Assembly: GCF_024972755.1 (NCBI RefSeq)
Contig: NZ_CP087724.1
Location: forward strand, 806,001-870,000
DNA: 64,000 nucleotides
Origin: Halanaeroarchaeum sp. HSR-CO
Lineage (GTDB): Archaea > Halobacteriota > Halobacteria > Halobacteriales > Halobacteriaceae
Direction: 5' to 3'
Shown one piece after another: positions 12,030-57,691 of this stretch. The notes beneath the pieces were generated by a model. The model had not been told where the DNA came from. It worked only from the letters and a program-made list of their open reading frames with translations, and made no database searches. Positions within the stretch are counted from its first letter, which is position 1. Each line of letters opens with the position of its first letter. Made by a program: the position numbers and the translations under genes.

Positions 12030-12031
12030 CC

Positions 12032-20715: not shown

Positions 20716-21066
<351 letters not shown>

Positions 21067-21087
21067 CTAAATAGCTGTCAGCACCTG

Positions 21088-38733: not shown

Positions 38734-38737
38734 CTGC

Positions 38738-40819: not shown

Positions 40820-41623
40820 TCAGCGCGGTTCGGACCAGGTTGTCGAGTCCGCCTCGGCGCGCGGACGATCGGGATCGACGTGGAGACGACCGTCGTGGAC
40901 GGTCACCGTCGCCGCGACGCCGTAGACGGTTTCGATCGCCGATTCCGTGAGCACCTCGATCGGCGGGCCACTTGCGTGGACGATCCCGTCGTGGAGCAAC
41001 GCGACCGAATCCGCGAAGCGGGCGGCCAGTTCGATGTCGTGCATCGCGACGACGCCGACGGCCCCACGACGGCGGACGTGCTGGCGGACCAGCGCCAGCA
41101 CGTCGAGGCGATGGCGCAGGTCGAGACTCGCGGTCGGTTCGTCCAGGAGCATCGCCGCGGGGTCCTGCACGAGCAGCCGAGCGATTCGGACCTTCTGTCG
41201 CTGCCCGCCGCTGAGCTCGTCCAGCGAGCGCATCGCGATGTCGCCCATCTCGAGAGCGTCCAGGACCTCGGCGACACGGTCGCGGTCAGCCCTGCTCGGT
41301 CGCCAACTCGTGTGGGGAGCGCGGCCCAGCAGGACCGACTCGAAGACCGTGGGAGCGAAGGTCGGGGTCTCCGACTGCGGGACGTAGGCGACCGCGGCCG
41401 CGCGCTCGGCCCGGCTGAAGTCGTCGAGGGGTTCGCCATCGAGTGACACCGTGCCGTTATCAGGCTCGAGAAGTCCCATCACGATTCGCAACAGCGTACT
41501 CTTTCCCGTCCCGTTCGGACCGAGGAGCGCGAGCACGGATCCGTCATCGACGGTGAGGGACACGTCCCGGAAGACCGGCTCGTCGGGGTAGGAGAAGGCC
41601 AGATTGCTGATCGCGAGGCTCAC
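40820..41623 (-). CDS. FecE/BtuD-type ABC importer ATPase
   Basis: The 267-residue ATPase has Walker A LGPNGTGKSTLL, signature LSGGQRQKVRIARLL, Walker B AAMLLDEPTASLD and H-loop VVAMHDIEL. It belongs to the family that powers import of ferric siderophores, cobalamin, haem, or molybdate/tungstate complexes. The start is a GTG overlapping the permease stop by four bases. It is the last of three ABC genes that follow hypF. A long open frame continues upstream through the permease gene but has no coding character there. Confidence 0.92.
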   Translation of the reverse strand: MSLAISNLAFSYPDEPVFRDVSLTVDDGSVLALLGPNGTGKSTLLRIVMGLLEPDNGTVSLDGEPLDDFSRAERAAAVAYVPQSETPTFAPTVFESVLLGRAPHTSWRPSRADRDRVAEVLDALEMGDIAMRSLDELSGGQRQKVRIARLLVQDPAAMLLDEPTASLDLRHRLDVLALVRQHVRRRGAVGVVAMHDIELAARFADSVALLHDGIVHASGPPIEVLTESAIETVYGVAATVTVHDGRLHVDPDRPRAEADSTTWSEPR

Positions 41624-42672
41624 CAGTGCTCCCTCCCGGCGACGACGAGGTAGACGAAAAGCGGCGCCCCGAGAAAGGAGGTGAGCACGCCGACGGGCAA
41701 CGAGAGCGGGGCGAAGGCAGCCCGGGCGGCCGTATCCGCGCAGACCAACAGTATTGCTCCGACCAGGCCGCTCGCGGGGAGGAGGATCCGTTCGTTCGTC
41801 CCGACGAGTTTGCGGGCGATATGGGGGGCGACCAGGCCGACGAACCCGATGATGCCCACGAAGGAGATCACGATCGCCGTGGCGAAGGCGGCGACGAGCA
41901 TCCCCAGCACGCGCAGTCGCTCGACCGGAACGCCGAGGCTGGTGGCGGTCTCGTCGCCGGCGTCGAGGATGGTGTACCGCCACCCGTTCACCGAGAAGTA
42001 CCCGGCACTCGCGATGACGCCGACCCCCATGATCGCGATCGCGGGCCAGGTCAGTCGCCCGAGGTCGCCGAACGTCCAGTAGACGATGGCCGCCACTTCG
42101 GTATCGGAGGCCAGGTACTGGATCACCGTGATCCCCGCGTTGAAGAGCGCCCCCAGGGCGACGCCGGTGAGGATGAGCGTCTCCGGGGAGGCGTTTTTGA
42201 ATCGGATCAACAGGAGGATGACGCTCGTCGAGGACAGCGCCACCACGAACGCACTGGCCGTCGTGACGTAGGGGCCGAAGGCGGCTCCGCCCACGCTCTC
42301 GACGCCGCGGACGGCGATCGAGAGCGCTGCGCCGAACGCGGCCGCCTGGGAGATCCCCAGCGTGTAGGGGGCACCGAGCGGATTGCGGAGCACCGATTGC
42401 ATCGCCGTCCCGACGTACGCTAGACCGGCCCCGGCGACGGCGCCACCGAGGATACGGGGAAGTCGGATCTGCCAGATCACCCGCTCGACCGTCGGGTCGG
42501 CCCGCCCCGTCAGTGCGGCCGCCGCGGTCCATGCCGAGATGTCGGTCGTCCCGGTGCGAAGAGCGACTGCCCCGACCGCGAACAGGCCCAGCACGCCGAG
42601 AGCCAGTACCCCGAGCCGCCGGGTTCGGTGGCGGTCGTAACGGTCGGCGATCCCCGACGTGTTCGCGGACAT
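41620..42672 (-). CDS. FecCD/BtuC-type ABC importer permease
   Basis: The 350-residue membrane protein has about ten hydrophobic helices. Family motifs are RLPRILGGAVAGAGLAYVGTAMQSVLRNPLGAPYTLGIS in the N-terminal third (seen in parts), GDLGRLTW, and FVGLVAPHIARKLVG, the coupling-helix region. It is the membrane part of a binding-protein-dependent importer with its neighbours. It starts two bases after the binding-protein gene and overlaps the ATPase gene. Confidence 0.92.
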   Translation of the reverse strand: MSANTSGIADRYDRHRTRRLGVLALGVLGLFAVGAVALRTGTTDISAWTAAAALTGRADPTVERVIWQIRLPRILGGAVAGAGLAYVGTAMQSVLRNPLGAPYTLGISQAAAFGAALSIAVRGVESVGGAAFGPYVTTASAFVVALSSTSVILLLIRFKNASPETLILTGVALGALFNAGITVIQYLASDTEVAAIVYWTFGDLGRLTWPAIAIMGVGVIASAGYFSVNGWRYTILDAGDETATSLGVPVERLRVLGMLVAAFATAIVISFVGIIGFVGLVAPHIARKLVGTNERILLPASGLVGAILLVCADTAARAAFAPLSLPVGVLTSFLGAPLFVYLVVAGREHW

Positions 42673-42673
42673 G

Positions 42674-43789
42674 TCACTGTCCGCTCCGTTCGGGCGAAAA
42701 TCGCTCGTAGGCGGGACTGGCAGCGACGACCTCGTCGTAGACCGCGGTTCCGAGCAACGCCCGGTAGATCTCGGCCGCCGTCGACGCGGGGTCCACGTCG
42801 TCGAACGCCGCTGGGTACAGCGTCCGGCCGACGAAGTAGCCGTTGAGTAGCATCGATCCAACGTTCTCGTGGTAGTGGGAGACCGGCAACAGCGAGAAGG
42901 CGTTCTCGCGATCGAACGCGGTCAGCGAGCGGAGTTCGGGGTGGGATCGAAGGTCCTCACGGACCAGATCGACGTTGGCGGCGCTGACGAAGACGGCGTC
43001 GGGATCCCAGGCCAACAGCTGTTCGACGTCCACGTTCACGGAGACGCCGACCGACTCGATCGGCGACGCGACGTTCCCGGCGCCGGCGTACCAGAACGGT
43101 GGATACGGGACCCGGGTCGTCGCGAAACCCTGGGCGCCCTTGTAGCTCACCCCACCGGCGAAGGCCGTTGCGGCCGCCCGGTCGGGAGCCCGCGAGCGCA
43201 GGTCGGCGACCGTCTGCGAGACGAACTCGATCACGCGCTTCGCCCGCGTCTCCACACCGAGAACCGATCCCAGCCGCCGCCACATCGCGTACAGCGCTTC
43301 GTGGGAGGCGTCGTCGACCGGGAAGGGCATCGACAGGACGACCGTCGGAACGCCGGTCTGGGACTCGAGGCGGTCGGCCGCGTCGGCACCGCTGATGGCC
43401 GAGACCAACAGGAGGTCCGGCTCGACGCCGAGCAGGGCCTCGGCGTTTCCGCCGGCGTCCGGACCCGAGGGCCCGACGACGGGCAGGTCCTGAAGCCGCG
43501 GGTTGGCGAGATTGTAGGGCAACGTCCGGTGGTCGGTGTGTTCGCCACGTTCGACGCCGACGACCCGATCCATCGCGTCGAGGTAGGCGACCTGACGGAG
43601 CGCTCCGGGACCGATGGCGACGAGACGGTCGACCGTCCTCGGAACGGCGACCGTCCGGTTTGCCCCATCGGTCAGTTCCACCGTTTCCGTCGTGGCGCCG
43701 CTGGTGGCGGCGGTATCCAGACAGCCGGCGAGCCCAGCCGACCCGATCCCCGCGACGGCCCGCAACAGTTCGCGTCTGTTCGTGCCCAT
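42674..43789 (-). CDS. FecB/BtuF-type substrate-binding lipoprotein
   Basis: The 371-residue protein starts with a Tat-type lipoprotein signal, TNRRELLRAVAGIGSAGLAGC, whose last Cys would be lipid-anchored outside the cell. A TroA-like two-lobe fold follows, with VDRLVAIGPGALRQVAYLDA, GVEPDLLLVSA and NVDVEQLLAWDPDAVFVSA. The substrate may be an iron, cobalamin, nickel or molybdate/tungstate complex. Its position 75 bp after hypF in a hydrogenase operon suggests a metal needed for CO dehydrogenase, hydrogenase or the Mo/W enzyme. Start at ATG 43789; an in-frame GTG is at 43804. Confidence 0.85.
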   Translation of the reverse strand: MGTNRRELLRAVAGIGSAGLAGCLDTAATSGATTETVELTDGANRTVAVPRTVDRLVAIGPGALRQVAYLDAMDRVVGVERGEHTDHRTLPYNLANPRLQDLPVVGPSGPDAGGNAEALLGVEPDLLLVSAISGADAADRLESQTGVPTVVLSMPFPVDDASHEALYAMWRRLGSVLGVETRAKRVIEFVSQTVADLRSRAPDRAAATAFAGGVSYKGAQGFATTRVPYPPFWYAGAGNVASPIESVGVSVNVDVEQLLAWDPDAVFVSAANVDLVREDLRSHPELRSLTAFDRENAFSLLPVSHYHENVGSMLLNGYFVGRTLYPAAFDDVDPASTAAEIYRALLGTAVYDEVVAASPAYERFSPERSGQ

Positions 43790-43864: not shown

Positions 43865-46168
43865 TCAGCTCCCCTCGGTCGCATCGGTTCGGGCAGTCGC
43901 GACGATCGTCTGCCCGTAGGCGATTCCCGCGTCGCCGGGCGGAACGTCCTCGTGGTCGAGCAGTTGGAGGCCGGCGTCCTCGACGGTCGAAGCGACCGTT
44001 CGAGAGATCGCCTCGTTGTACGCCACGCCCCCGGAGAATCCGACGGCGTCGACGCCGCGCTCTGTCGCCGCCGCGACCGCCAGCCGTCCCAGCCCCCGTG
44101 CCAGCGCGTGCTGTGCCGTCGCCGCCACGTCGGCCGGTGGGTGACCGTCCCGACGCTCCCCTAGCTCGCGAGCGAGCGAGCGGACGTCGAGTACCGGTCG
44201 ATCGTCGCCGTCCTCGATGGGGATCGGCACGTCGATGGGCGCCCCCTCGCTCGCCAGCGCCTCGAGGCGCATCGCCGGTTCGCCCTCGTAGCGTCGTTCG
44301 ACCGATGGTTCCAGCATGGCACACGTTGCGTCGAGGAACCGTCCGGCGCTGGTCGTCCGCGGGGCGTTGACAGCCGCACCGAGCTGGTCGCGAACGACGG
44401 CGGCGTCGGCCGCGTCGCCGAGACCTGCTTCGAGTAGCGAGTCGATGCGGTCGTCGTCCTCGAGGAGGCTGGCCAGGATCCGTACGGGCCGACGAACGGC
44501 GGCCTCTCCGCCCGGTAACGCGAACGGCGCCAGGCTACCGACGCGCTCGAAGTCCCGCCGCGTGGCGTCGAGCACCTCGCCGCCCCAGATCGATCCGTCG
44601 GGACCGTAACCGGTCCCGTCGGCGACGATCACGATCGCCCGATGGCGCTCGTGCTCGCCGAGCAGCGAGGCCGCGTGCGCGTGGTGATGCTGGACGCGGA
44701 TCGGCCCCGCCAGGGCCGCGTCCGCTCGGCGCTCGGCCTCGCGGCTCGTGACGAACTCGGGATGGGCGTCACAGGCGACGATCGACGGGGTCACACCGAG
44801 GAGTTCCGTCAGGTGGTCGACGGTCTCGCGGTGGAACCGCCGGGTGGCTGGTCCGTCGACGTCGCCGAGGTGCTGGGAGGGGACGACCGCCGATCCCTGC
44901 GTGACCGCGACCGTCGCGTCGAACTCGGCACCCATCGCCAGGACGTCCGGTGCGGGCGACGGCGCCGGGTCCGCGTACCGCGGGAGTCGCTGGGGGACCC
45001 AGCCCCGCGAACGACGGACGAACCGTCGTTTCCCGTCCACCATCCTGACGACGCTGTCGTCCGTGCGCGCGACGATCTCGCGATCGTGGACGAGCGCCCC
45101 GTCGATCACGTCCGACAGCGTCGCCCAGATCGTCTCCCTGTCGGTCGCCATCGGCTGGCCGGGTGGATTCGCGCTGGTGGCCACCAGCGGCGCGTCGAGG
45201 TCGTCGAACAGCAGGTGGTGCAACCCGGCGTACGGTCCCATCACGCCGACGGTGTGGAGGTTCGGAGCGATCGGTTCGAGCCACTCGGCGGATTTGCGTT
45301 TCAGCAGGACGATCGGGCGCCGGACGTCCTCGAAGGCCTCGCGTTCCTGGTCTGTGACCCGGGCGAACGCTTCGACGCGGTCGATCGAGGGGGCCATGAG
45401 GGCAAATGGCTTGGCCGGCCGACCCGTCCGCTCGCGAAGTCGTGCGACCGCGTTCCGGTTCGTGGCGTCACAGAGGAGATGGGTTCCGCCGATGCCCTTC
45501 ACGGCCACGATCCCGCCGTCCTCGATCGTCGTCGTCGTGCGATCGATCGCCGCCCGCCCCGATTCCTCCTGGACACCGGGACCAGATTCGAACGTGAGCG
45601 TCGGCCCGCACGCCGGGCAGGCCGTCGTCTGGGCGTGATAGCGGCGATCGCTGGGGTCCTCGTAGTCCCGTCGGCAGTCCGTACAGAGCGGGAAGGCGTC
45701 CATTGTGGTCCGCGGTCTGTCGTAGGGCAACGAGCGGATGACCGTATAGCGCGGCCCACAGTCGACGCACGCGGTGGCCCAGTACTCGCAATATCGCGAG
45801 TCCGGATCTCGCATGTCTTCCAGACAGGACTCACAGATGCCCGTGTCGGCCGGAATCGTCCCCGACCCCTCGCCGCCGCCGGCCGACTCGCGGATCTCGA
45901 AGGAATCGAGTCCCACGGGCGGTTCGGGCTCCCGGTCGATCGATTCGACGCGGGCGAGGGGCGGCGGCTCCTCGCGGACCGTCCGGACGAACTCCGCTAT
46001 CGCGTCGGGCTGTCCCTCGACGACGATCGCGACACCCGCGTCACCGCGGTTTTTGACCCAGCCGGCGAGACCGTGGTCGGTCGCGGTGCGGTACACGAAC
46101 GGGCGAAAGCCGACCCCCTGGACGACCCCGGTGACCGTGAGACGGGTTCGACGCGGCTCGGTACCCAT
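43865..46168 (-). CDS. hypF: Hydrogenase maturation carbamoyltransferase HypF
   Basis: The 767-residue protein makes the carbamoyl group that becomes the cyanide ligands of the NiFe centre. Domains in order are acylphosphatase-like (1-90, VVQGVGFRPFVYRTA), two zinc fingers (CESCLEDM...CVDC and CTDC...CPAC), a YrdC-like domain (about 200-380) and a Kae1-like C-terminal domain with HHHAHAASLL. The ATG at 46168 overlaps the hypB stop. All HypF domains appear intact. Confidence 0.96.
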   Translation of the reverse strand: MGTEPRRTRLTVTGVVQGVGFRPFVYRTATDHGLAGWVKNRGDAGVAIVVEGQPDAIAEFVRTVREEPPPLARVESIDREPEPPVGLDSFEIRESAGGGEGSGTIPADTGICESCLEDMRDPDSRYCEYWATACVDCGPRYTVIRSLPYDRPRTTMDAFPLCTDCRRDYEDPSDRRYHAQTTACPACGPTLTFESGPGVQEESGRAAIDRTTTTIEDGGIVAVKGIGGTHLLCDATNRNAVARLRERTGRPAKPFALMAPSIDRVEAFARVTDQEREAFEDVRRPIVLLKRKSAEWLEPIAPNLHTVGVMGPYAGLHHLLFDDLDAPLVATSANPPGQPMATDRETIWATLSDVIDGALVHDREIVARTDDSVVRMVDGKRRFVRRSRGWVPQRLPRYADPAPSPAPDVLAMGAEFDATVAVTQGSAVVPSQHLGDVDGPATRRFHRETVDHLTELLGVTPSIVACDAHPEFVTSREAERRADAALAGPIRVQHHHAHAASLLGEHERHRAIVIVADGTGYGPDGSIWGGEVLDATRRDFERVGSLAPFALPGGEAAVRRPVRILASLLEDDDRIDSLLEAGLGDAADAAVVRDQLGAAVNAPRTTSAGRFLDATCAMLEPSVERRYEGEPAMRLEALASEGAPIDVPIPIEDGDDRPVLDVRSLARELGERRDGHPPADVAATAQHALARGLGRLAVAAATERGVDAVGFSGGVAYNEAISRTVASTVEDAGLQLLDHEDVPPGDAGIAYGQTIVATARTDATEGS

Positions 46169-47073
46169 CACTGATCGCCGTCGAGCGTGACGCCCGTCGG
46201 GTCCGCCTCGGAGGGCCGGGCCGGGGTCTCGACGTGATCGCCCTCCGTCGGGGCGTGGCCCCGTCGTTCGACCTCGTCGACGTAGGCGAAGAGGCTCTCG
46301 AGCCCGTCGCCGCGTTCGACGCTGGTCGGGAACGTCGGCACGTCGCCGGCCACCGCCTCGACGTCGGCGAGCATCCGGTCGAGGTCGGCCCCGACGGCGT
46401 CAGCGAGGTCGACTTTGTTGATCACGGCGGCGTCCGCGGCCTGGACCAACAGCGGGTGTTTTCTGACGACGTCGTCGCCCTCGGTGGTGCTCACCACCAG
46501 GATGCGGGCCTGCGCGCCCAGCGGGACGTCGGCCGGACAGACCATGTTCCCCACGTTCTCGATGAAGAGGGTATCGAGGGCCGCGGGATCGAGTTTCTCC
46601 AGCCCCGCCTCGATGAACGACCGGTCGAGGTGACACTCCCGGCCCGTGTTGACCGTCGCGACGGTCGCGCCGTGGTCGCGGAGCCGTTCGGCGTCGTCCT
46701 CGCCGGCGACGTCCCCGACGATCACGCCCACGGCGGCGGGGTCGTCGGAGCGGTCGACCAGGCGTTCGATGAGCGAGGTCTTCCCGCTGCCGGTACTCCC
46801 GAGGAACTCCACGACGAAGACGCCGTGGTCGTGGACGAATCGGTCGTGCAGTTCCACCGCTTGCTGGCGGTACGCCTCGAGGACGTCGTCGTTTACGTCT
46901 GCGTCGGAAAAGGCGTCCTCGTCGTGACCGAAGCGGTGGGCACGGAGCGGGCCGAGGGCGGGAACCACCCCGCCATCGACGGCACCGACGGGGATCCTTT
47001 CGAGCAGGCTGTCGACGAGGAACTCGATCGTTCGGGGCGGTGCGTTCGGATGGATGTGGTGATCGTAAATCAT
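46168..47073 (-). CDS. hypB: Hydrogenase nickel-insertion GTPase HypB
   Basis: The 301-residue GTPase has P-loop FLGSTGSGKTSLIERL, GRECHLDRSF, FIENVGNMVCPAD (with the metal-binding Cys near the dimer interface) and NKVDLADAVG. It delivers nickel with HypA. The N-terminus MIYDHHIHPNAP carries a few histidines but no long His-rich nickel store. A C-terminal acidic tail of about 40 residues is unusual. It overlaps hypA and hypF. Confidence 0.95.
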   Translation of the reverse strand: MIYDHHIHPNAPPRTIEFLVDSLLERIPVGAVDGGVVPALGPLRAHRFGHDEDAFSDADVNDDVLEAYRQQAVELHDRFVHDHGVFVVEFLGSTGSGKTSLIERLVDRSDDPAAVGVIVGDVAGEDDAERLRDHGATVATVNTGRECHLDRSFIEAGLEKLDPAALDTLFIENVGNMVCPADVPLGAQARILVVSTTEGDDVVRKHPLLVQAADAAVINKVDLADAVGADLDRMLADVEAVAGDVPTFPTSVERGDGLESLFAYVDEVERRGHAPTEGDHVETPARPSEADPTGVTLDGDQ

Positions 47074-47462
47074 CTCTCTGTTCGATTGGTGGCTGCCGGG
47101 TCGTCCGGGACGGCGATACTGCGCAGTTCACACTCGCGGCCCGCCGCGAAGGTGAGCCGTTCGCCACACTCGGGGCAGGTCACGTTGGGCGCGACCACGT
47201 AGGTCGAATCGAGTGTCCCCGGTTCGCCCTCCCAGCCGCACGCACAGGTCGCGACCGGCGCGACCGTCTCGATCTCGATGGTCGCGTCGGCCGCGATGGT
47301 GTCACGGGCGACGGTCTCGATCGTGAACACGAGCTGTTCGGGGTTGATGTGTGTGGCCTCGCCGACGGCGACCGTCATGGCGTCGACACGCTCCGCGTCG
47401 TGCTCCTGGGCAGCCTCGCGAGCCCGGTCGACCAGCGCTCTGGCGAGCGATACCTCGTGCAT
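47070..47462 (-). CDS. hypA: Hydrogenase nickel chaperone HypA
   Basis: The 130-residue protein starts MHEVSLARAL, where His2 with the N-terminal amine binds nickel. It carries a zinc domain with CACG and CPECG. The length is slightly above the usual 115 residues because of an acidic or polar tail. It works with HypB and could also serve nickel supply to CO dehydrogenase, although that enzyme has its own CooC here. It overlaps hypB by four bases and shares one base with hypE. Confidence 0.95.
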   Translation of the reverse strand: MHEVSLARALVDRAREAAQEHDAERVDAMTVAVGEATHINPEQLVFTIETVARDTIAADATIEIETVAPVATCACGWEGEPGTLDSTYVVAPNVTCPECGERLTFAAGRECELRSIAVPDDPAATNRTER

Positions 47463-48484
47463 CAGCAGATACGGGGGAGTGGTTCGGCGATCGGTTCGGT
47501 CATGAAGCGGCGCCCGACGCCCGTATCGAGGACGACCTCGCCGGGATGCTCCGCGTGGACGTCCCCAATCAACGTGGCGTCAGCCCCACCAGGCCGTTCG
47601 CGGAGGGCCGCGACGATCGCCTCGGCGTCCCCCGGCGGTGCGGCGAAGACGAACTTCCCCTCGTTGGCCACGTCGAAGGGGTCGATGCCGAGCACCTCGC
47701 TGGCGCCCTCGACCCCGTCCGCGACCGGGATCGATCGTTCGTCGACCTCGATACCGACCGAGGCTTTGCGGGCCATCTCGTTGAGCACCGTCGAGAGCCC
47801 CCCACGGGTCGGATCTTTCATCGCTGCGATCGACCCCGCCTCGCGGGCGGCGTCGACCAGGTGGTCGACGGGGGCGACGTCGCTCTCGAGGGGGTCCTCG
47901 AAGCCGATATCCTCGCGAGCGGCGAGCAAGGCGATCCCGTGGTCGCCGATCGTCCCCGAGACCCCGATCTTCTGGCCCGGTTCCAGGGCCGCGTCGCTGA
48001 CGTGCGTTCCCGGCGGGATGATGCCGACCCCTGCCGTGTTGACGACCAGGCCGTCGACGTCACCGCCCCCCATTACCTTGGTGTCGCCGGCGACGATCCG
48101 ACAGCCTGCCTCCTCGCAGGTCGTCCCCATCGACTCGACGATGCGATCGAGGCGATCCATCGGGAAGCCGTCCTCGACGATCAGGGCGCTCGTCAACGCG
48201 ACGTCGTCCGTCGCGCCCATCATCGCCAGGTCGTTGACCGTGCCCGCGACCGCGAGTCGGCCGATGTCGCCACCCGGGAACTCCAGGGGGTCGACGACGT
48301 GACTATCGGTGGTGAGGACGACCGAGCGATCGCCGGCCGGCAGGACGGCCCCGTCGTCGAGCGCGTCGAGGCCGACGGCGTCGCCGTGGTCCCCGCCGAA
48401 TCTGGGGAGGACGACGTCCGCCAGGAGGTCCCGCATCGGTTCGGTGCCGGTGCCGTGATCGGTCGAGACGAATTCGTCGGTCAC
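47462..48484 (-). CDS. hypE: Hydrogenase maturation protein HypE
   Basis: The 340-residue PurM-like ATPase dehydrates the carbamoyl group, held as thiocarboxamide on its C-terminal cysteine, to thiocyanate. The C-terminus ends PLPRIC, exactly the conserved terminal motif. Other motifs are DGAVLPAGDRSVVLTTDSHV and KDPTRGGLSTVLNEMA. The start codon is GTG. It follows hypD by two bases. Confidence 0.96.
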   Translation of the reverse strand: MTDEFVSTDHGTGTEPMRDLLADVVLPRFGGDHGDAVGLDALDDGAVLPAGDRSVVLTTDSHVVDPLEFPGGDIGRLAVAGTVNDLAMMGATDDVALTSALIVEDGFPMDRLDRIVESMGTTCEEAGCRIVAGDTKVMGGGDVDGLVVNTAGVGIIPPGTHVSDAALEPGQKIGVSGTIGDHGIALLAAREDIGFEDPLESDVAPVDHLVDAAREAGSIAAMKDPTRGGLSTVLNEMARKASVGIEVDERSIPVADGVEGASEVLGIDPFDVANEGKFVFAAPPGDAEAIVAALRERPGGADATLIGDVHAEHPGEVVLDTGVGRRFMTEPIAEPLPRIC

Positions 48485-48486
48485 GG

Positions 48487-49599
48487 TCAGACCTCCGGTC
48501 GGCCGCCGTAGCGGTTCCAGATGTTACAGGTGCCTTCGTCGCTCACCATACACGGTCCGACCGGGTCCCGCGGGGTACAGACGGTTCCGAACAGCGTGCA
48601 GTCGTCCGGGTCGGCGGTCCCCGCCATGATGTCGCCACACAGGCACTGCTCGGCCAGCGGGTCGACCGGCCCGACGTCGGGGTCGATGTCGAACTGCTCG
48701 CGGGCGTCGTGGGCTGCATACGCCGGTCGGATCTCGAGGTTCCCCGATGGGATCTCGCCGAGGCCGCGCCAGGCACGGGTCGTCTGCTCGAAGACGGACC
48801 ACATGGTCTCCTGGGCCGCGACGTTGCCCGCCTCGGAGACGACCCGGGGATAGGCGTTCCCCAGCCCGGGGTCGTCGGTCGCGATCATCTCGAGGAGGTC
48901 GGCGATGGCCCGCAGCACGTCGAGGGGCTCGAACCCCCCGACGACCGTCGGGATCTCGTGTTCCTCGACGAGGTCTTCGAACAGTCCGTAGCCGGTGATG
49001 GCGGCGGCGTGGCCCGCCGCGAGGAACCCGTCGATGTTCGTCTCGGGGAGTTCGGCGATCGCCTCCATCGCCGGCGGGACGTACTTGTGGACCGAGAGGA
49101 CGCTGAAGTTCTCGGGCGGATCGGCGGCCAGTACCGCCGCCGTCGGGGCCGCGGTCGTCTCGAAGCCGGTGGCGAAGAAAACCACCGACTCCTCGGGGTT
49201 CGCTCTCGCGTACTCGACGGCGTCGCTGGCGCTGTAGACGACTTCGACGCTCGCCCCCTCGCGTTTCGCGTCGCGCAGGCTCCCCTCTGTTCCCGGGACC
49301 CGGAACATGTCGCCGAACGTCGCGACGGTCACGCCCGCCTCCGCGAGGGCGATTCCCTCGTCGATCTCCGGCATGTCGGTCACGCAGACCGGACAGCCCG
49401 GCCCCATCCGCACCGAGAGATCGGCCGGGAGGTTGGCCCGGAGGCCGTATTTCGCGATGGCCTCCTCGTGGGAGCCACAGACGTGCATCAGGGAGACGGG
49501 CTCGCCGATGGCGTCCATCAGCGCGTCGATCCGGTCGTAGAGGGCCCTCGCCTGGTCGTCGTCGCGAAAGCGGAGAATCGGTTCCTCCTCGTCGGTCAT
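48487..49599 (-). CDS. hypD: Hydrogenase maturation scaffold HypD
   Basis: The 370-residue iron-sulfur protein assembles the Fe(CN)2CO unit together with HypC. It has LMHVCGSHEEAI with the active-site Cys, GPGCPVCVTDMPEID, FFATGFETTAAPTA, and the C-terminal cysteines for a [4Fe-4S] cluster (EQCLCGDIMAG, DDCTLFG, CTPRDPVGPCMVS, GTCNIW). The ATG at 49599 overlaps the hypC stop by four bases; the longer frame above it runs antisense-like through hypC and was rejected. Confidence 0.96.
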   Translation of the reverse strand: MTDEEEPILRFRDDDQARALYDRIDALMDAIGEPVSLMHVCGSHEEAIAKYGLRANLPADLSVRMGPGCPVCVTDMPEIDEGIALAEAGVTVATFGDMFRVPGTEGSLRDAKREGASVEVVYSASDAVEYARANPEESVVFFATGFETTAAPTAAVLAADPPENFSVLSVHKYVPPAMEAIAELPETNIDGFLAAGHAAAITGYGLFEDLVEEHEIPTVVGGFEPLDVLRAIADLLEMIATDDPGLGNAYPRVVSEAGNVAAQETMWSVFEQTTRAWRGLGEIPSGNLEIRPAYAAHDAREQFDIDPDVGPVDPLAEQCLCGDIMAGTADPDDCTLFGTVCTPRDPVGPCMVSDEGTCNIWNRYGGRPEV

Positions 49600-49886
49600 T
49601 CGGGGCGGCCCTCCGTCTTTTCGTCCCCGATACCGTCCAGGGACTCGACGTCGAGCGCCTCGCCGGCGTCCGCCCCGAGCAGTTCCTCGTAATACGATAT
49701 GGTCTCTGCTACCTCCTCTTCGGGGATCTTCCTGATGGCGAAGCCGGCGTGGTTCAACACGTAATCGCCGACCGAGAGGTCCGCCCCGACGATGTCGATG
49801 CGGATCCACTTCTCGACGTCCCAGAACTCCGCGAGCGCCTCGTCACCGTCGATCTCCAGTACCTCGCCTGGTATACCGAGACACAT
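49596..49886 (-). CDS. hypC: Hydrogenase maturation chaperone HypC
   Basis: The 96-residue protein starts MCLGIPGEV; Cys2 carries the iron unit that is passed to the large subunit. The conserved NHAGFAI histidine is at about residue 45. An acidic tail of about 20 residues extends beyond the usual HypC length. It sits four bases after the small zinc-finger gene and overlaps hypD. Confidence 0.95.
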   Translation of the reverse strand: MCLGIPGEVLEIDGDEALAEFWDVEKWIRIDIVGADLSVGDYVLNHAGFAIRKIPEEEVAETISYYEELLGADAGEALDVESLDGIGDEKTEGRPE

Positions 49887-49890
49887 GTAG

Positions 49891-50073
49891 TTACGAATCC
49901 TCCGTCGTCTTCGAGTCGGTTAGTGATTCTGCACCGAGCTGCCACGGATCGTTCGAGAGCAGGCGGTCGGGGACGACGTGGGCTTTCACGTCGTGGTCCG
50001 CCGCCTCGTGTTCGTCGACTGCCGACTCCTCGATGCCCTCGCCACAGGTCAGACACATCCATCGGACCGTCAC
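49891..50073 (-). CDS. Small zinc-finger protein in the hydrogenase operon
   Basis: The 60-residue protein has one possible zinc site, C-x2-C-x11-H-x4-H (CLTCGEGIEESAVDEHEAADH), then an acidic tail. It starts with a GTG overlapping the stop of the protease gene by four bases and ends four bases before hypC, the same tight packing as its neighbours. That is the main argument that it is translated. An ATG at 50058 would give 55 residues. I do not recognise a family. A role in hydrogenase assembly or in regulating the operon is only inference from location. Confidence 0.7.
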   Translation of the reverse strand: MTVRWMCLTCGEGIEESAVDEHEAADHDVKAHVVPDRLLSNDPWQLGAESLTDSKTTEDS

Positions 50074-50582
50074 GATGACCCCTCCTGGGCGACCGCCGGC
50101 TCGTCGATCGCCGTGCCGCCTCGTACCAGCTCCTCGCGCACGAGCGCGACGAGCTCGTCGAGTCCCTCGCGCACGGTCTCGGATAGCTGGAGCCCGGCGG
50201 TGACGACCGCGGGCGTCATTCCCAGCACGACGATCTCCTCGGGGACCGCGTAGGCGTGATCGCCCGCGGCCAGCGCCTCCGTGAAGGAGAAATCGTGCAT
50301 GTTGATATCGAAGTCGGCGGATTCGAACGCTCCTTCCCGGTAGACGATCCGGTGGACGTCTCCCGGTTCGGCGTCGGGAACCTGGAGCGCGTCGACGACG
50401 ATGGCGCGATCGGCGCCGTCCATCGCCTCGAGGGCGAAGAAGGCGGTCGTGCCGGCGTGCGAGAGGCTGACGTCCGGATGTTCGTCCAGTCCTGCGTCTC
50501 TGAGCGCGTCGACGACCGCGGCCGAGAGCCCGTCGTCGCGCATGATCTGGTTTCCGACGCCGACGACCGCCTGTTCAGTCAT
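50070..50582 (-). CDS. hyaD: Hydrogenase maturation endopeptidase (HyaD/HupD family)
   Basis: The 170-residue protease removes the C-terminal peptide of the large subunit after nickel insertion. Family motifs are VVGVGNQIMRDDG near the N-terminus, ALEAMDGADRAIVVDAL with the nickel-binding Asp, and DINMHDFSFTEALA with the nickel-binding His. The ATG at 50582 overlaps the cytochrome gene by eight bases; an in-frame GTG lies at 50585. Its likely substrate is the 25-residue tail of the large subunit encoded nearby. Confidence 0.93.
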   Translation of the reverse strand: MTEQAVVGVGNQIMRDDGLSAAVVDALRDAGLDEHPDVSLSHAGTTAFFALEAMDGADRAIVVDALQVPDAEPGDVHRIVYREGAFESADFDINMHDFSFTEALAAGDHAYAVPEEIVVLGMTPAVVTAGLQLSETVREGLDELVALVREELVRGGTAIDEPAVAQEGSS

Positions 50583-51378
50583 CACCGTCCTCCGTCGGGC
50601 TCTCGACCTCGTAGTACGGGACCGTCCCCACGACCATCGACTTGAGGAAGTCCCAGTTGCTCTTCATCACACCGAAGTAGGCGTGAAAGATCACCATCGC
50701 CGTGATCACGGCCGCCAGGACCAGGTGGAGCTGTTTGAGCGTCTCGACGGCCAGGTAGTCCGCCGGGATTCCCAGCCAGACCACCCACCAGACCGGGTCG
50801 GTCGCCATCTCGCGGTAGATGCCGAACCCCGTGAGCGCGACCAGGGCCACGAAGATGGAGATCCACCAGAAGTACGCCTTCTGTGCGGGGTGGCCGACCA
50901 TCCAGTGTTCTTTGATCACGTCCCAGGTGCGACGCCCCTTGTGGTAGTTCGGCGGGTATTCGCGCACTCCCAGGAAGGCCAGCCCGATGTTGATCCCCAG
51001 TACGATGTCCGAGTACTCCGCGAGCTGGCGATGTCCGTCCACGAAAACGTGGTAGAACGGAAATAGGAGTAGCGTGACGACCACGATGAAGATGCCCGCC
51101 CACATGTGCAAGCCGAAAGCGACGTAGTAGCCGTCCCAGATGGGGACGTTCATCGGCCCGTAGTTGCCCGACCAGAGGGCGTACCCGGTGACGACGAGCA
51201 CGGTCATCAGGGTCACCTGCAGCCAGTGGGCCAGCCGCGAACCGAGCGAATGACGGAGGCGTTCACCGACGATCTCCGCGTCTGACAGCTCGAAACATCT
51301 GGGATCGAAATCGCAGTACCGCTCCCAGATGTCCTCGGTCAACAACTTGTGAAGCCCCCGACGGTCGCTGGTGCTCAT
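50575..51378 (-). CDS. hyaC: Hydrogenase cytochrome b subunit
   Basis: The 267-residue membrane protein has about four to five hydrophobic helices and histidines placed for b haems (RLAHWLQVTLMTVLVVTGY, AFGLHMWAGIF, LKQLHLVLAAVI, VIFHAYFGVM). It would anchor the exported hydrogenase and carry electrons to menaquinone. ATG 51378 overlaps the large-subunit stop by four bases. An upstream extension to 51474 lies inside the large-subunit gene and was rejected. Confidence 0.93.
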   Translation of the reverse strand: MSTSDRRGLHKLLTEDIWERYCDFDPRCFELSDAEIVGERLRHSLGSRLAHWLQVTLMTVLVVTGYALWSGNYGPMNVPIWDGYYVAFGLHMWAGIFIVVVTLLLFPFYHVFVDGHRQLAEYSDIVLGINIGLAFLGVREYPPNYHKGRRTWDVIKEHWMVGHPAQKAYFWWISIFVALVALTGFGIYREMATDPVWWVVWLGIPADYLAVETLKQLHLVLAAVITAMVIFHAYFGVMKSNWDFLKSMVVGTVPYYEVESPTEDGDD

Positions 51379-52925
51379 CGCGTCATACTCCCTCCAGGGG
51401 TCGCGGACGCGGGTTCGACCACCGATTCGTACTCCTCCTCGGGACTCTGGACGTGGACCGAACAGGCCAGACACGGATCGAACGATCGGATGGTCCGCAT
51501 CACGTCGATCGGGTTCGAGACCGACTGGACGGCCATCCCCTCGGCGGACTCCTCGAAGATGCTCGGCGTACCGTCGGCCGACCGCGGCCCCAGGTTCCAG
51601 AGCGTCGGGGTGACGATCTGGTAGTTCTCGACCTGGCCGTCCTCGACGCGGACCCAGTGGGAGACGGCGCCACGAGAGGCCTCCCAGAGGCCCACGCCCT
51701 CACCCGTGAAGTCGTCGTCCCAGCCGGCGTTGTAGACGCCGTTCGGATCGAGCGCGTCGATCCAGTCGGTGAGGAGGTCGCGGACGACGAGCGTCTCCTG
51801 AGCCCTGGCGATGAGTCGATTGAGGGTGTTGCTGGCCGTCGCCCCGCCACCCAGCGTCTCCCGCAGGTCGAAGGGGTCGGCGTCGGCGGCGACCAGACGG
51901 GCCAGGGGCCCGACCTCCATCGAACGACCGTTGTACCGGGGCGCTTTCCCCCAGGAGTACGCGCCGGATTTCTCGGGGTCCGGCTCCGGCGGTTTCTCGT
52001 CCCACGGTTGGCCCCCGGAGTCGTCCGTGTACCAGGAATACTCGACGTCCTCGGTGACGGAGTCGACGATGTCAGCTTTCGATGGATGTCGGAGTTCGCC
52101 GTCGGCGTAGACGCCGCGGGGGAGTGCCAGGGAGTCCGCGTCCGTTCCGTAGAAGACCCCGTTGGCGTAGTACCGGTCGGGGCCGACGCCGACCTCGTCG
52201 GCGCCCTCCTGCTTCGCGGCGACGAGCAGGCTCACGATGTCGTGAAGCCCCTGTGCGTATTCGGACTCCACCTGCCCGTCCTGGACGTTCTCGATCACTT
52301 CGGGGACCGCGTCGGTCGGGCCGAGCCACTGGTTGACGGCCTTGATCTTCGAACGGACCTGTTCGATGGTCTCGAGATCTGGCTGGACGGCGGTGCCACC
52401 CGGTGCGTACGTGAGCGGGTGTGGCGCCCGGCCGCCGAACTCGGAGAACGCCTGCAGCACCGTCCGCTGGACCTCCAGGGCGCGCTTGTATCCCTCGCCA
52501 CCCTCGCCACCGGCGACGGCGGCTGGGTTCAACCGGTCGAAGCCGGTGTCTGCGACCGCGTCTGAGTAATCCGGGCCCGCGAGGGCGAACAGATGCACCG
52601 CGTGGTTCCAGATGAAAAACAGGCCCTCCATCACGTCGCGGAGGATCCGGGCGTTCTCGGGAACGCCGTCGAAGACGCCGGCGCGCTTTGCCGCGTCCTC
52701 GATGGCCAGAATCGAGGTCTGGCGGTGGCAGGTGAAACAGACCCCACAGGTCATCTGCGTGATCTGGGGGGCGTCGGAGGGCGGTCGCCCGAGCGTGATG
52801 ATCTCGATGCCACGGAACATGTCCATGTGGCTTTTGGCGTTCGTGACGACTCCGTCCTCTACCTCGAGGGTCGTGCTGTGGTGGCCTTCGATACGCGTCG
52901 TCGGATCGATTTCGATTTCCGGCAT
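51375..52925 (-). CDS. hyaB: [NiFe] uptake hydrogenase large subunit
   Basis: The 516-residue catalytic subunit has RIEGHHSTTLEV (L1), TCGVCFTCHRQTS (L2) and DPCLACSVH (C-terminal motif), which together give the four Cys ligands of the NiFe centre. The Arg of the usual RxCGxC is replaced by Met-Thr (QMTCGVC). About 25 residues follow the final His and should be removed by the HyaD-type protease. With a Tat-exported small subunit and cytochrome b it fits a group 1 membrane-bound uptake hydrogenase oxidising H2 outside the cell. Confidence 0.95.
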   Translation of the reverse strand: MPEIEIDPTTRIEGHHSTTLEVEDGVVTNAKSHMDMFRGIEIITLGRPPSDAPQITQMTCGVCFTCHRQTSILAIEDAAKRAGVFDGVPENARILRDVMEGLFFIWNHAVHLFALAGPDYSDAVADTGFDRLNPAAVAGGEGGEGYKRALEVQRTVLQAFSEFGGRAPHPLTYAPGGTAVQPDLETIEQVRSKIKAVNQWLGPTDAVPEVIENVQDGQVESEYAQGLHDIVSLLVAAKQEGADEVGVGPDRYYANGVFYGTDADSLALPRGVYADGELRHPSKADIVDSVTEDVEYSWYTDDSGGQPWDEKPPEPDPEKSGAYSWGKAPRYNGRSMEVGPLARLVAADADPFDLRETLGGGATASNTLNRLIARAQETLVVRDLLTDWIDALDPNGVYNAGWDDDFTGEGVGLWEASRGAVSHWVRVEDGQVENYQIVTPTLWNLGPRSADGTPSIFEESAEGMAVQSVSNPIDVMRTIRSFDPCLACSVHVQSPEEEYESVVEPASATPGGSMTR

Positions 52926-52928
52926 CAG

Positions 52929-54029
52929 TCAGTCCTCCTTTGGCTCCGGTGTTTCGTCTTCGGTGTCGCCGTACCCGACCGCCTTGCGTGCGGCGTGGGC
53001 GCCGATCCCGACGGCGGCCCCGCCGATCGCGACCTTGCCGGCGGTCTCGGCGTCGACGCCGAAGGCGTTCTGTTGCTCGATCGGTTCGTAGTAGGGCGAA
53101 AAGCGGTCCCAGAACGCCGGTTCCATGCACCCGATACACGGCGCACCGACGTTCCGACAGACGCTCGTTCCGTCGTTCCAGAGTCGTTCGGACTCGTCAC
53201 AGTGGACGTACGGCCCCGCACAGCCGACCTCGTACAGACAGCCGTCCTCACCGGGTTTCTCCGCGAACTCGCCGCGGTCGAAGTACCCGCGCAGGGCGCA
53301 GGTGTCGTGGATGTTGTCCTCGAAGAACGCGAGCGGTCGATTGTACTGGTCGAGTTCCGGCGCGTGACCGTTGAGCACCGTCGCGAGTGTCAACAGGATG
53401 TAATCGGGGTGGGTCGGACAGCCGGCGAGGTTGACGACCGGAAGCCCGGCCGCGGACGTGAAGTCGGCCCCGAGGACGCCGCCCTCCTCGCGACCGTCGA
53501 ACTGGAGTCCCCGGGCACCAGTGACGTTCGGGCCGAGGTCGTACAGTCGCTTCTTGTTCTCCGCGGCGGGCAGACCACCAAACGCCGAACAGTTGCCGGT
53601 CGCCACGACGTAGTCCGATTTCGGGGCGAGTTCCTGGACCCAGTCCGCCAGGGGTTTTTTCTCGCCGTTCTCGTCGTAGCCGAGCGTGGCAGCCGAGGGG
53701 ATGTCCGTCGGAATCGATCCCTCGACGACGAGGACGTCCGGGTCGGTCGACATCGCATCCATCGCGGCCTCACCGCTCTCGGCCATGAGCGTGGGGTGGA
53801 AGGTCACTTCCAGTCGGAAGTCGCTGATGACCTCGCTGAGCGAGGGGTAATCGCCCTGCAGCAGGGACACCGAGTCGCCCGAACAGGACTGGCCCTGTAA
53901 CCAGACGACTTCGGCGGAGCCCTCCGTCGCCTGTTCGAGGGCCGACGCGATGTCGGTCGAGTACTGTGTGATGACGCCGCCGGCGGCCATCGTTCCGGCC
54001 AGCCGGAGGAAGTTGCGGCGAGTAGTCAT
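52929..54029 (-). CDS. hyaA: [NiFe] uptake hydrogenase small subunit, Tat-exported
   Basis: The 366-residue subunit starts with a twin-arginine signal (TTRRNFLRLAG) and ends with a hydrophobic helix (AGKVAIGGAAVGIGAHAA), a membrane anchor. It carries three Fe-S clusters. The proximal site reads QGQSCSGDSVSLL, so the usual second Cys of CxxC is Asp (CxxD); the other ligands are in GNCSAFGG and LAGCPTHPDY. Distal and medial ligands appear in NIHDTCALRGYF, CLYEVGC and APCIGCMEP. An AGGAG ribosome-binding site lies seven bases before the ATG (54037-54041). It is first in the long operon. Confidence 0.95.
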   Translation of the reverse strand: MTTRRNFLRLAGTMAAGGVITQYSTDIASALEQATEGSAEVVWLQGQSCSGDSVSLLQGDYPSLSEVISDFRLEVTFHPTLMAESGEAAMDAMSTDPDVLVVEGSIPTDIPSAATLGYDENGEKKPLADWVQELAPKSDYVVATGNCSAFGGLPAAENKKRLYDLGPNVTGARGLQFDGREEGGVLGADFTSAAGLPVVNLAGCPTHPDYILLTLATVLNGHAPELDQYNRPLAFFEDNIHDTCALRGYFDRGEFAEKPGEDGCLYEVGCAGPYVHCDESERLWNDGTSVCRNVGAPCIGCMEPAFWDRFSPYYEPIEQQNAFGVDAETAGKVAIGGAAVGIGAHAARKAVGYGDTEDETPEPKED

Positions 54030-54350: not shown

Positions 54351-54827
54351 TCAGTGCGGAATTCCCTTGATGTGTAACTCCAGGTGCTCGACGTCGGCCG
54401 CGTGGTCGGGATCGATCCACCCGACGTCGGCGTCCGGCTTGCTGTCGAGACCGTCGACGTACGGTTTCAGATCCAGCACGGGCGTCCCGTCGAAGGCGTC
54501 GATCGCAGAGATGTCCACGCGGCCCTCTTCGATCCCGGTGATCCGAACGACGCTGAGGCCGATGGGGTTCGGCCGTCGTGGCGCTCGCGTCGCGAAGAGG
54601 CCCACGGTCCGATCGGACCACGGGGGCGTGACCGAGAGTGAGTAGCCCGCCACCCGGTCGAGGTCGAAGAGCACGTACGCGTACTCGAAGGCCTCGAGGC
54701 GATCCAGGCCGTCCACGTACGCGGGGTCGAGGTCGATCGCGAAATCGCCGGGCTCCGGGATCGGCTGAAACGGCGCTGCGCCCTCGTACGGGGTACGCAA
54801 CTGACCGATCGGCTCGTATTCGACCAT
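54351..54827 (-). CDS. trmO: tRNA threonylcarbamoyladenosine methyltransferase TrmO (TsaA)
   Basis: The 158-residue protein has the TsaA/TrmO barrel: EYEPIGQLRTPY at the start, then LDRLEAFEYAYVLFDLDR, LFATRAPRRPNPIGLSVVRI (the signature R-x-P-x-R-P-N-x-I-G-x-S) and LDLKPYVDGLD. It N6-methylates t6A37 in some tRNAs. It lies 134 bp after cooC in the same direction. There is no obvious link to CO oxidation, though TrmO-family genes do sit near metal enzymes in other genomes. The frame upstream to 55379 overlaps cooC and was rejected. Confidence 0.93.
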   Translation of the reverse strand: MVEYEPIGQLRTPYEGAAPFQPIPEPGDFAIDLDPAYVDGLDRLEAFEYAYVLFDLDRVAGYSLSVTPPWSDRTVGLFATRAPRRPNPIGLSVVRITGIEEGRVDISAIDAFDGTPVLDLKPYVDGLDSKPDADVGWIDPDHAADVEHLELHIKGIPH

Positions 54828-54961: not shown

Positions 54962-55702
54962 CTACAGCACGCGCTCGTCCAGATCCTCGAGTAACGTCTC
55001 GGCGACGTCCCGCAGCGCGGGACTGGCGTCCACGGGGGAGGTTCCCTGGAGTCCGGCCGCGGCGACATCCTGGTCGTATTCGAAGGTGCCGATGACCGGC
55101 AATTCCAGGTGCTCGCGGATCATCTCCGTCTCCGCCGGTTCTCGGATCCGGTTGATGAACGCGAACACGTGCTCGATGCCGACGTCGTTGGCCAGCGAAC
55201 GGATCTGGTGGGCCGTGTCTATCGACGCCCGGGAGGGTTCGATCACGACCACCATGGCGTCCATGTCGTCGGCCGTCCCTCGTCCGAGGTGTTCGATTCC
55301 CGCTTCCATATCCATGATGACGTCGTCGTAATCGAGCGCTTGTGTGACCAACGCCCGGATGAAGTTGTTCTCCGGGCACATACAGCCAGTCCCACCGCCT
55401 TCGGGAGGACCGATGGTGATGAGCCGACCAGCCGCGCCGAAGGTCGCCGAGTGCTCCTCGAGGACGTCCTCGACGTCGGGTTGCATCTGGATGAGTCCGC
55501 CGGACGAGCCGGCTCGATCCTCGATGAGATCGTTCTCTTGCGTGATCGGCGAGGGCTGTTCGACGCCGAGGGTACTGGCGAGGTTCATATCGGGGTCGCC
55601 GTCGATGGCCATCAGCGAGCGTTCATCGGCGATCGACCTGGCGAGTGCTGCGGCAAGCGTCGACTTGCCGACGCCTCCCTTTCCGGTAATTGCGAGTTTC
55701 AT
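54962..55702 (-). CDS. cooC: CO dehydrogenase nickel-insertion ATPase CooC
   Basis: The 246-residue MinD-like ATPase has deviant Walker A ITGKGGVGKST and the CooC metal motif CxC (GCMCPE) near residue 107, which binds nickel or zinc between two monomers. Later come DVIMDMEAGIEHLGRGTADDMD and VVVIEPSRASIDTA. It loads nickel into the C-cluster of CooS. It starts 30 bp after the cooS stop, so the pair is an operon. All expected motifs are intact. Confidence 0.96.
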   Translation of the reverse strand: MKLAITGKGGVGKSTLAAALARSIADERSLMAIDGDPDMNLASTLGVEQPSPITQENDLIEDRAGSSGGLIQMQPDVEDVLEEHSATFGAAGRLITIGPPEGGGTGCMCPENNFIRALVTQALDYDDVIMDMEAGIEHLGRGTADDMDAMVVVIEPSRASIDTAHQIRSLANDVGIEHVFAFINRIREPAETEMIREHLELPVIGTFEYDQDVAAAGLQGTSPVDASPALRDVAETLLEDLDERVL

Positions 55703-55732
55703 TGGAGTGTAGGTGGGGGAGCGGACAGTGGT

Positions 55733-57691
55733 TCAGTCGTCGGCGCTGGCGAGGACGTCGTCGTCGACGAGCGGCGCGCGCCGTTCGTCGAGTGCGTCGA
55801 TGATCTTCTCGGCGGCGCCATCGGGCGTCTCGTCCTGAATGAGGTGGCCGCCGGTGATGTCCTTTAGGTCCTCGGTCAACACCTGTGTGACGACGTCGCT
55901 GGCTTCGATGCGTAGGCCGGGCGCCGTGTGGAGTGGAAGACCCAGCGATAGCGCCCAGGTACCGATGCTGACCGCCTTCTCGGCGATGAGCTCGGGGGCG
56001 CTCGCTGCGACCGGGAGGTCGCGGGTCGGGATCCCGCTCCCCTCGGAGATGGCACGGATGACGTTGCCGATCCGGGAGTTGTCGACACAGGATCCCATGT
56101 GAAGCACTGGGGGGAGCGGGCCGTCGAGGCCGGCGGCGTCCCCGAGGGCGTGCAGGAGTTCGGTGATGCCGTCGCCTGCCAACTCGTCGACCCGACCCGG
56201 ATCGAGGTAGCCGCCCTGGGCCATGATGTGCCCGATACACCCGGTGACGACCGGGAGCACGTCGGCGGCGAGGAGGTTCTCGATGAGCTTCTCGGACATC
56301 TCGGCCTCGCGCATCTTGGGGTTCGGACAGCCGACGATGCCGACGATACCCCGGAGCTGGCCGGCCTGGATCGCGTCGACGATCGGCTGGGCCGGGTTCT
56401 CGGGATCGATCGTTTCGAGAACGTCGAGGATGGCCGTATCGGAGAAGCCGACCATCGCCTGCTGGCTGCGGTCCGGAATGTTGACGTCGTACTTCTGGCG
56501 ACGCTGGCGGTCCTCGTAGCCCTCGATCGCTTCACGAACGATCTGTTTCGCGTCCTCGAGTGCGGTCTCTTCCTCGAAGGGGATGTGTTTCGCCTCCCGC
56601 ATCCGGACGTAATCCATGGTGGTGATCAGCTGGGTGTGATGACACTCCATGAGGTCGGAGATGCCCGGCCAGATACACTGAATGTCCACGACCATGGCGT
56701 CGACCGCTCCGGTCGTGATCGCGAGTTCCGATTGTAGGCTGTGGGCGGCGAGCGGGATCCCGTGTCGTTCGGCGAGTTCGTTGCCGGTACAACAGATCCC
56801 GACGAGATTGATCCCCTCGGCGCCGACCGCGTGGGCCTCGTCTTCGAGCTCTCGGGCGGCTTTGACGACCATCTCGCTCAACTGCGGTGAGTGGCCGTGG
56901 ACGGCCAGGTTGACCTGGTCTTCTTCGAGGACGCCGAGATGGGCCTCGGCGTTCGTCGGCGTCGGCGTCCCGAAGATGATGTCCTGCAGATCCGTGGCCA
57001 TCGTGAGGCCCGCGTAGCCGTCGGCGATGCCGGCGGAAATGGCGCTTCCGAGGATGTGTTCGGTGTCGGAATCGTTGCCCTGGTGGGTCTGGGCGAGTGC
57101 CCGGGAGGCCTGTTGGTCGACGCTGGAGAGCGGGAGCAGCCCCTGCTCGTCGAGGTGTTCGCGTTGCTCGGCGGGCATCCGCTGGATCCAGTTGAGCGTC
57201 TCGCCGCCCGGCGCGAAGTCCTCGGCTGCCGCGTCGGCGACCGCCCGAGCGACCTCGTTGACGTCTCCGTCGGACTGGACGCCGACGTCGGCGGCGATCG
57301 TTCGGAGTTTCGACTCGTCTTTGATCTCGTAATCCGCGACGCCGCCGTCCGCGATCTCGGAGAGCAGTTCGACGGCTTCGCGTGCGTGATGGGAGTGTGC
57401 CGATACGCCACCGGCGATCTCCCGGTACAGGTTGCGCGAGACGACCGTTCCTGGGGTCGCACCGCAAACCCCTCTGTCCTGCCCGTACTGGTCGTCGTCG
57501 CTCACGCGACATGGCCCCATATAACAGATATCACAACAGCTACCAGCCGTCCCGAACGGACACTGTGGCTGGCTCTCTTCGAGACGATCGACCGGCATCT
57601 CGTACTCTACTTCTCGCTGGACGTCGAGTGTCCGGTCTGCACTATCTCGGGGGCCAAAATCGAAGACGGGATCCGGTGTTTTCTCGCTCAT
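55733..57691 (-). CDS. cooS: Anaerobic Ni-CO dehydrogenase catalytic subunit CooS
   Basis: The 652-residue enzyme oxidises CO to CO2. All known metal ligands can be placed. D-cluster: C44 and C52. B-cluster: C53, C56, C61 and C76. C-cluster: His in NLAVHGHSPQ, Cys in GICCTGNE, VDIQCIWPG, GIVGCPNPK, VVTGCIGHI and HMGSCVDNS. Catalytic Lys is in LIAEKAVSIG and a proton-relay His in SAHSHHAREA. Length is that of monofunctional CooS. No CooF or acetyl-CoA synthase gene is adjacent; electrons must leave through another ferredoxin. ATG 57691 is preferred; a GTG at 57712 adds seven residues. The protein is as acidic as its neighbours, so it is long adapted to high salt. Confidence 0.97.
   Translation of the reverse strand: MSEKTPDPVFDFGPRDSADRTLDVQREVEYEMPVDRLEESQPQCPFGTAGSCCDICYMGPCRVSDDDQYGQDRGVCGATPGTVVSRNLYREIAGGVSAHSHHAREAVELLSEIADGGVADYEIKDESKLRTIAADVGVQSDGDVNEVARAVADAAAEDFAPGGETLNWIQRMPAEQREHLDEQGLLPLSSVDQQASRALAQTHQGNDSDTEHILGSAISAGIADGYAGLTMATDLQDIIFGTPTPTNAEAHLGVLEEDQVNLAVHGHSPQLSEMVVKAARELEDEAHAVGAEGINLVGICCTGNELAERHGIPLAAHSLQSELAITTGAVDAMVVDIQCIWPGISDLMECHHTQLITTMDYVRMREAKHIPFEEETALEDAKQIVREAIEGYEDRQRRQKYDVNIPDRSQQAMVGFSDTAILDVLETIDPENPAQPIVDAIQAGQLRGIVGIVGCPNPKMREAEMSEKLIENLLAADVLPVVTGCIGHIMAQGGYLDPGRVDELAGDGITELLHALGDAAGLDGPLPPVLHMGSCVDNSRIGNVIRAISEGSGIPTRDLPVAASAPELIAEKAVSIGTWALSLGLPLHTAPGLRIEASDVVTQVLTEDLKDITGGHLIQDETPDGAAEKIIDALDERRAPLVDDDVLASADD

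Follow-up and report, generated by a model that had tools for sequence, protein, structure and literature searches.

A predicted nickel carbon monoxide dehydrogenase with a bacterial sister group, beside hydrogenase genes in the haloarchaeon Halanaeroarchaeum sp. HSR-CO

Introduction

From where would a haloarchaeon obtain a nickel-dependent carbon monoxide (CO) dehydrogenase, and to what would it pass the electrons taken from CO? These questions are raised by a 64,000-nucleotide stretch of the genome of Halanaeroarchaeum sp. HSR-CO (contig NZ_CP087724.1, positions 806,001 to 870,000; hereafter the window), in which cooS, for the catalytic subunit of a Ni,Fe-CO dehydrogenase (CODH), is followed by cooC, for a nickel-insertion ATPase. 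Here we argue that the pair probably encodes a working monofunctional Ni,Fe-CODH, one that would oxidize CO to CO2 as an electron donor for sulfur respiration.

The use of CO through a Ni-CODH by sulfur-respiring haloarchaea is already known since 2022. In PMC11332174, CO-oxidizing, sulfur-respiring Halanaeroarchaeum and Halalkaliarchaeum are credited to Sorokin et al. (2022, ISME J, doi 10.1038/s41396-022-01206-x), which bears out the precedent named in the initial annotation of this DNA; the same article reports CO oxidation activity for isolates of both genera, obtained with CO and elemental sulfur. Strain HSR-CO is itself on record, with a proteome (PXD028241; PMC11530927). The sequence evidence described below supports a complete Ni-CODH in haloarchaea and indicates a bacterial source group; to the known trait it adds that sister group, the missing electron partners, an apparent transfer between haloarchaeal families, and a tRNA-linked island. 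Taken as a whole, the interpretation first placed on the locus is supported in part.

Identity and Integrity of cooS and cooC

The catalytic subunit scores 594.6 bits against TIGR01702, the profile of the anaerobic CODH catalytic subunit, well above the cut-off of 478, and its match to Ni-CODH is confirmed at the level of sequence as far beyond chance. Its closest solved relatives are CODH-IV (E 9e-167) and CODH-II (E 5e-161) of C. hydrogenoformans. By alignment, in CODH-II numbering, the protein keeps the ligands of the D-cluster (C39/C47), the B-cluster (C48, C51, C56, C70), and the C-cluster (H261, C295, C333, C446, C476, C526), together with the catalytic lysine and histidine and further residues (K563, H93, H96, I567, D219). 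All cluster ligands and both catalytic residues are thus common to the window's CooS and the two solved enzymes (6elq, 1su6); however, identity to these is 43–45%, they fall in another subgroup of the tree, and the acidic surface make-up (pI, the isoelectric point, is 4.35 in the window's CooS) is found only on the haloarchaeal side. Clade F of the CODHs has been reported as paraphyletic (PMC8776680). His99 and His102 of CODH-II are replaced by Glu in the window's CooS—the solved CODH-IV has Asp/Glu at these positions.

cooS is present as a single copy in the genome, and its reading frame has no internal stop. Comparison with the nearest relative gives dN 0.077 and dS 0.88; because dN lies far below dS, the gene appears to be under purifying selection. 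CooC carries a GKGGVGKST P-loop and a Cys-Met-Cys (Cys-X-Cys) site, which align with those of CooC from all other haloarchaeal loci. The two genes therefore appear to form an intact, working pair, and the initial claim of a complete CooS with CooC within 30 bp proved exact down to its coordinates (Table 1).

Two other identities for CooS were ruled out. Hydroxylamine reductase (hybrid-cluster protein) models reach 18 bits against a cut-off of 360.8, and a CODH/acetyl-CoA synthase (ACS) is excluded since CdhC (PF03598) was not found in the genome and was found in methanogen controls. The large subunit of the Mo-CODH, CoxL, was likewise not found in this genome, so the view that this is not the Mo form stands.

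Table 1. Positions of the genes and other features discussed (window coordinates, except where a locus label is given)
Feature	Position	Strand	Remarks
cooS, Ni,Fe-CO dehydrogenase catalytic subunit	55733..57691	minus	ATG at 57691; 652 amino acids
cooC, nickel-insertion ATPase	54962..55702	minus	246 amino acids; 30 bp downstream of cooS
TrmO-like tRNA methyltransferase	54351..54827	minus	PF01980; probably a bystander
[NiFe]-hydrogenase small subunit	52929..54029	minus	Twin-arginine translocation (Tat)-type RRNFLRLAG start
[NiFe]-hydrogenase large subunit	51375..52925	minus	
Hydrogenase cytochrome b-type membrane subunit	50575..51378	minus	Weak TIGR02125 match, supported by position
Hydrogenase maturation protease	50070..50585	minus	TIGR00072
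hyp genes, in the order hypF, B, A, E, D, C along the plus strand	43865..49886	minus	Assembly of nickel and Fe(CN)2CO site
ATP-binding cassette (ABC) uptake system: ATPase, FecCD permease, periplasmic binding protein	40820..43789	minus	
tRNA-Tyr	38660..38734	plus	Left edge of lineage-specific island (about 38.9–57.9 kb)
NuoF-like FMN protein beside 107-amino-acid 4Fe-4S ferredoxin	20716..22185	minus	
Psr/Ttr-like operon: FeS subunit, NrfD membrane subunit, Tat Mo catalytic subunit, 209-amino-acid chaperone-like gene	11022..17371	plus	Chaperone role by position only
CooC copies with N-terminal extension	L040:11252-12163; L041:11471-12454; L042:7944-8888; L043:8222-9100		

Distribution and Origin

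In a survey of 394 sampled Halobacteria genomes from 86 genera, CooS was found in eight genomes representing five genera. The eight copies are monophyletic with full support, and their sister is a set of bacterial metagenome-assembled genomes (MAGs) from Actinomycetes, Coriobacteriia, Chloroflexota, Nitrospirae, and Spirochaetes (support 100/98), within a small bacterial sample drawn from one exact-pattern scan. The haloarchaeal and sister proteins share CIWP and GCP motifs beside the C-cluster cysteines, and in the tree the haloarchaeal clade is separate from the sampled enzymes of methanogen type and of Thermococcus. The search for a donor clade that was proposed at the outset thus leads to a bacterial group, not to methanogens. 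The stem of the haloarchaeal clade is long, at about one change per column; therefore, either cooS was transferred long ago or its actual donor lies outside the sample. As the tree is unrooted, movement from bacteria to archaea is the likelier direction rather than a proven one, and acquisition from bacteria long ago is likewise the likelier history. Plasmid-borne CooS came to light in only two distant bacterial records.

A later movement seems to have taken place within the haloarchaea. The window's CooS is 84–89% identical to the copies in three g40 genomes, which belong to another family (f2), and 63–67% identical to the remaining haloarchaeal copies. Elongation factor 2 (EF-2) of the same genome, a protein that ranks among the most conserved, is 86–87% identical to that of g40, 84% to that of Halalkaliarchaeum, and 86% to that of Halodesulfurarchaeum formicicum HSR6 (G007). 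Since CooS is as close as EF-2 for g40—and far less close for another family—these values point to passage of cooS between the window's lineage and g40, that is, across haloarchaeal families; on the direction of this transfer, an approximately unbiased (AU) test returned p 0.48. The cooC gene divides in the same way as cooS, with the window and g40 copies on one side and the other four haloarchaeal copies on the other. The g40 genomes may be Halapricum.

Absence of the Bacterial Electron Partners

The bacterial relatives keep cooS in a richer setting. At three bacterial loci (L009, L010, L033) a CooF gene precedes cooS and a NAD/FAD reductase gene follows it; CooC comes next in L009 and L010, and L010 also has energy-converting-hydrogenase-like genes downstream. 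Over the wider set of such operons, from Actinomycetota, Chloroflexota, Nitrospirota, and Spirochaetota MAGs (the three above with L011 and L029), the reductase is present, as is CooF where the upstream end of the locus is covered; identity to haloarchaeal CooS is 46–49%. In contrast, neither CooF nor the reductase was found at any of the eight haloarchaeal cooS loci, where only cooS and cooC are kept. Halalkaliarchaeum AArc-Sl (G362) illustrates this: it has the same gene pair and enzyme class as the window, although its CooS is only 66% identical and the adjoining hydrogenase cluster is confined to the window.

No CooF homologue specific to the CooS-bearing genomes was found either; the best matches are equally good in Halodesulfurarchaeum, which lacks CooS. 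One pair of genes in the window was considered and rejected as replacement partners, namely the NuoF-like flavoprotein and the 107-amino-acid ferredoxin, as these are absent from other CooS-bearing genomes or give short, weak matches there. Both are present in Halodesulfurarchaeum and absent from the same-genus genome G094, which belongs to the same family as HSR6.

One tentative history, to which we give somewhat less than even weight, would be that the haloarchaeal cooS-cooC pair is a stripped bacterial CooF-CooS-reductase-CooC operon: its carriers may have been lost after transfer, its electron flow rewired to a general haloarchaeal ferredoxin, and the remainder passed on, as a compact cassette, from one haloarchaeal family to another, where it would enable sulfur respirers to use CO. 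The 2022 ISME J paper is said to place CooS and CooC in one locus, to note similar proteins in Halapricum, and to find no H2 formed from CO.

A Proposed Route for Electrons from CO

The enzyme proposed here would work as follows. CooC would load nickel into the C-cluster with ATP, and CooS would then catalyze CO + H2O → CO2 + 2 H+ + 2 e−, the electrons leaving via the B- and D-clusters. Because there is no CooF partner, the acceptor would most likely be a general cytoplasmic ferredoxin, from which electrons could pass through a complex I that lacks the NADH module to menaquinone, and from there to a sulfur reductase of the Psr type, for which a candidate is encoded at 11.0–17.4 kb. The catalytic direction, the ferredoxin, the complex I path, and sulfur as acceptor are the inferred parts of this scheme. 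Nonetheless, the chain is the simplest available, given that there is no ACS, no Mo-CODH, and no group-4 hydrogenase; the last was not found in the genome, where a single Complex1_49kDa homologue is taken as NuoD and no further one is present. NuoD is also the evidence for complex I in this genome, and the ferredoxin-driven route is carried over from the sister genus Halodesulfurarchaeum, for which it has been proposed (PMC5437934).

Three observations weigh against CO serving as a donor for sulfur respiration in this way. No CooF or reductase was found at the locus, and no electron carrier specific to CooS-bearing genomes was found; the cytochrome oxidase gene set could offer another electron sink; and the adjoining hydrogenase leaves some room for coupling to CooS. 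Which carrier serves CooS in the salt-saturated cytoplasm can be tested, and on the answer depends how much energy is gained from CO.

Oxygen and Alternative Roles

The initial annotation took an oxygen-sensitive enzyme to imply anaerobic use of CO. Anaerobic use is indeed likely, but the enzyme alone does not prove it, and the implication was drawn too strongly. The genome carries COX1, the gene of a heme-copper oxidase, and next to it COX2- and COX3-like genes (G000:C1:1889959-1891284, locus L117); COX1 was not found in G094 or in the strictly anaerobic HSR6. Moreover, CODH-IV exposed to O2 for an hour is still about one-fifth as active (PMC13056359). The organism need not be a strict anaerobe, because the genome also encodes this oxidase, and some respiration with oxygen may be possible.

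These genes lend some weight to a different role, in which CooS would detoxify CO or supply a minor, supplementary stream of electrons, possibly with O2 as final acceptor under micro-oxic conditions. The gene pair is accessory and patchy (8 of 394 genomes), and CODH-IV, its nearest solved relative, has been described as an O2-resistant CO scavenger (PMC13056359). Set beside the isolation of related strains on CO and sulfur, we regard this role as unlikely.

The Hydrogenase Cluster and Its Island

The genetic setting was singled out at the start as worth detailed study, and rightly so: the coo genes adjoin a [NiFe]-hydrogenase and hypFBAEDC within an island of about 19 kb that lies 3′ of tRNA-Tyr. 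The island holds the ABC uptake system (its substrate is perhaps a metal chelate), the hyp genes, the protease, cytochrome b, both hydrogenase subunits, trmO, cooC, and cooS. Unlike hypF, B, E, and D, hypA and hypC were assigned by sequence and position only. With a Tat-type small subunit, a large subunit, cytochrome b (a weak match), the protease, and the hyp set all present, the enzyme probably belongs to the group 1 membrane-bound uptake [NiFe]-hydrogenases; its haloarchaeal relatives have been classed as group 1/1a (PMC5437934, PMC6176080). It would act as a separate uptake enzyme that feeds the same quinone pool and shares with CooS a need for nickel, not electrons from CO.

The flanking genes (for FtsZ, tRNA-Tyr, and TrkA) span about 21 kb in the window versus about 4 kb in G094, which has neither CooS nor the hydrogenase. 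In G094 the 3′ end of tRNA-Tyr recurs about 110 bp downstream as an exact 24-bp repeat (C1 about 532033–532240, L077), and this second copy suggests that tRNA-Tyr is an integration site. Within the window no integrase was recognized, and the tRNA-Tyr 3′ end is present once.

Was the island gained as one hydrogenase-plus-CODH unit, the two enzymes having evolved together as one system? The absence of the whole block from G094, where the flanks lie close together and the 24-bp copy is found, is consistent with this, and haloarchaeal hydrogenase modules have been called suitable for lateral transfer (PMC6176080). However, the two parts differ in their affinities: the window's CooS is 84–89% identical to the f2 copies, whereas its hydrogenase is about equally distant (62–66%) from relatives in families f1, f2, and f4. 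HSR6 carries a hydABC-hyp block in the same gene order as the window's, with about 66–70% nucleotide identity in the longer blocks; its chromosomal location is different, however, and HSR6 has no CooS. Among the haloarchaeal cooSC loci examined, only the window has a hydrogenase alongside. With loci of the two kinds occurring apart, and with the integrase and second tRNA copy lacking from the window, acquisition as one unit is improbable, and stepwise assembly of the island is more likely, if not proven.

Hydrogenogenic CO oxidation, in which CooS would pass electrons to the adjacent hydrogenase to form H2 (a water-gas shift), could draw on the hydrogenase operon immediately downstream of cooSC on the same strand, on the hydrogenases common beside some CODH clades (PMC13056359), and on the genes downstream of cooS in L010, but it is very improbable: the Tat signal and cytochrome b give the window's enzyme an outward-facing uptake make-up, no hydrogenase stands beside the other cooSC loci, and a CooS/energy-converting hydrogenase system is wanting in its group-4 hydrogenase (genome) and its CooF (locus).

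Other Observations

A perfect inverted repeat with 7-bp arms (GCACAAT-3-ATTGTGC, 57798–57814) lies about 110 bp upstream of cooS. It was not found at the other haloarchaeal loci and is within chance expectation; a shared regulatory site upstream of cooS was therefore rejected. At the other four haloarchaeal loci, CooC is lengthened at its N terminus by an MCxxCG and His-rich segment, probably metal-binding, which the window and g40 copies lack.

The Psr/Ttr-like operon, for a candidate sulfur reductase, is kept in G094. Divergent from it on the minus strand (8753–10651), and also kept in G094, is a gene for a PAS-domain sensor-type protein that might regulate sulfur respiration.
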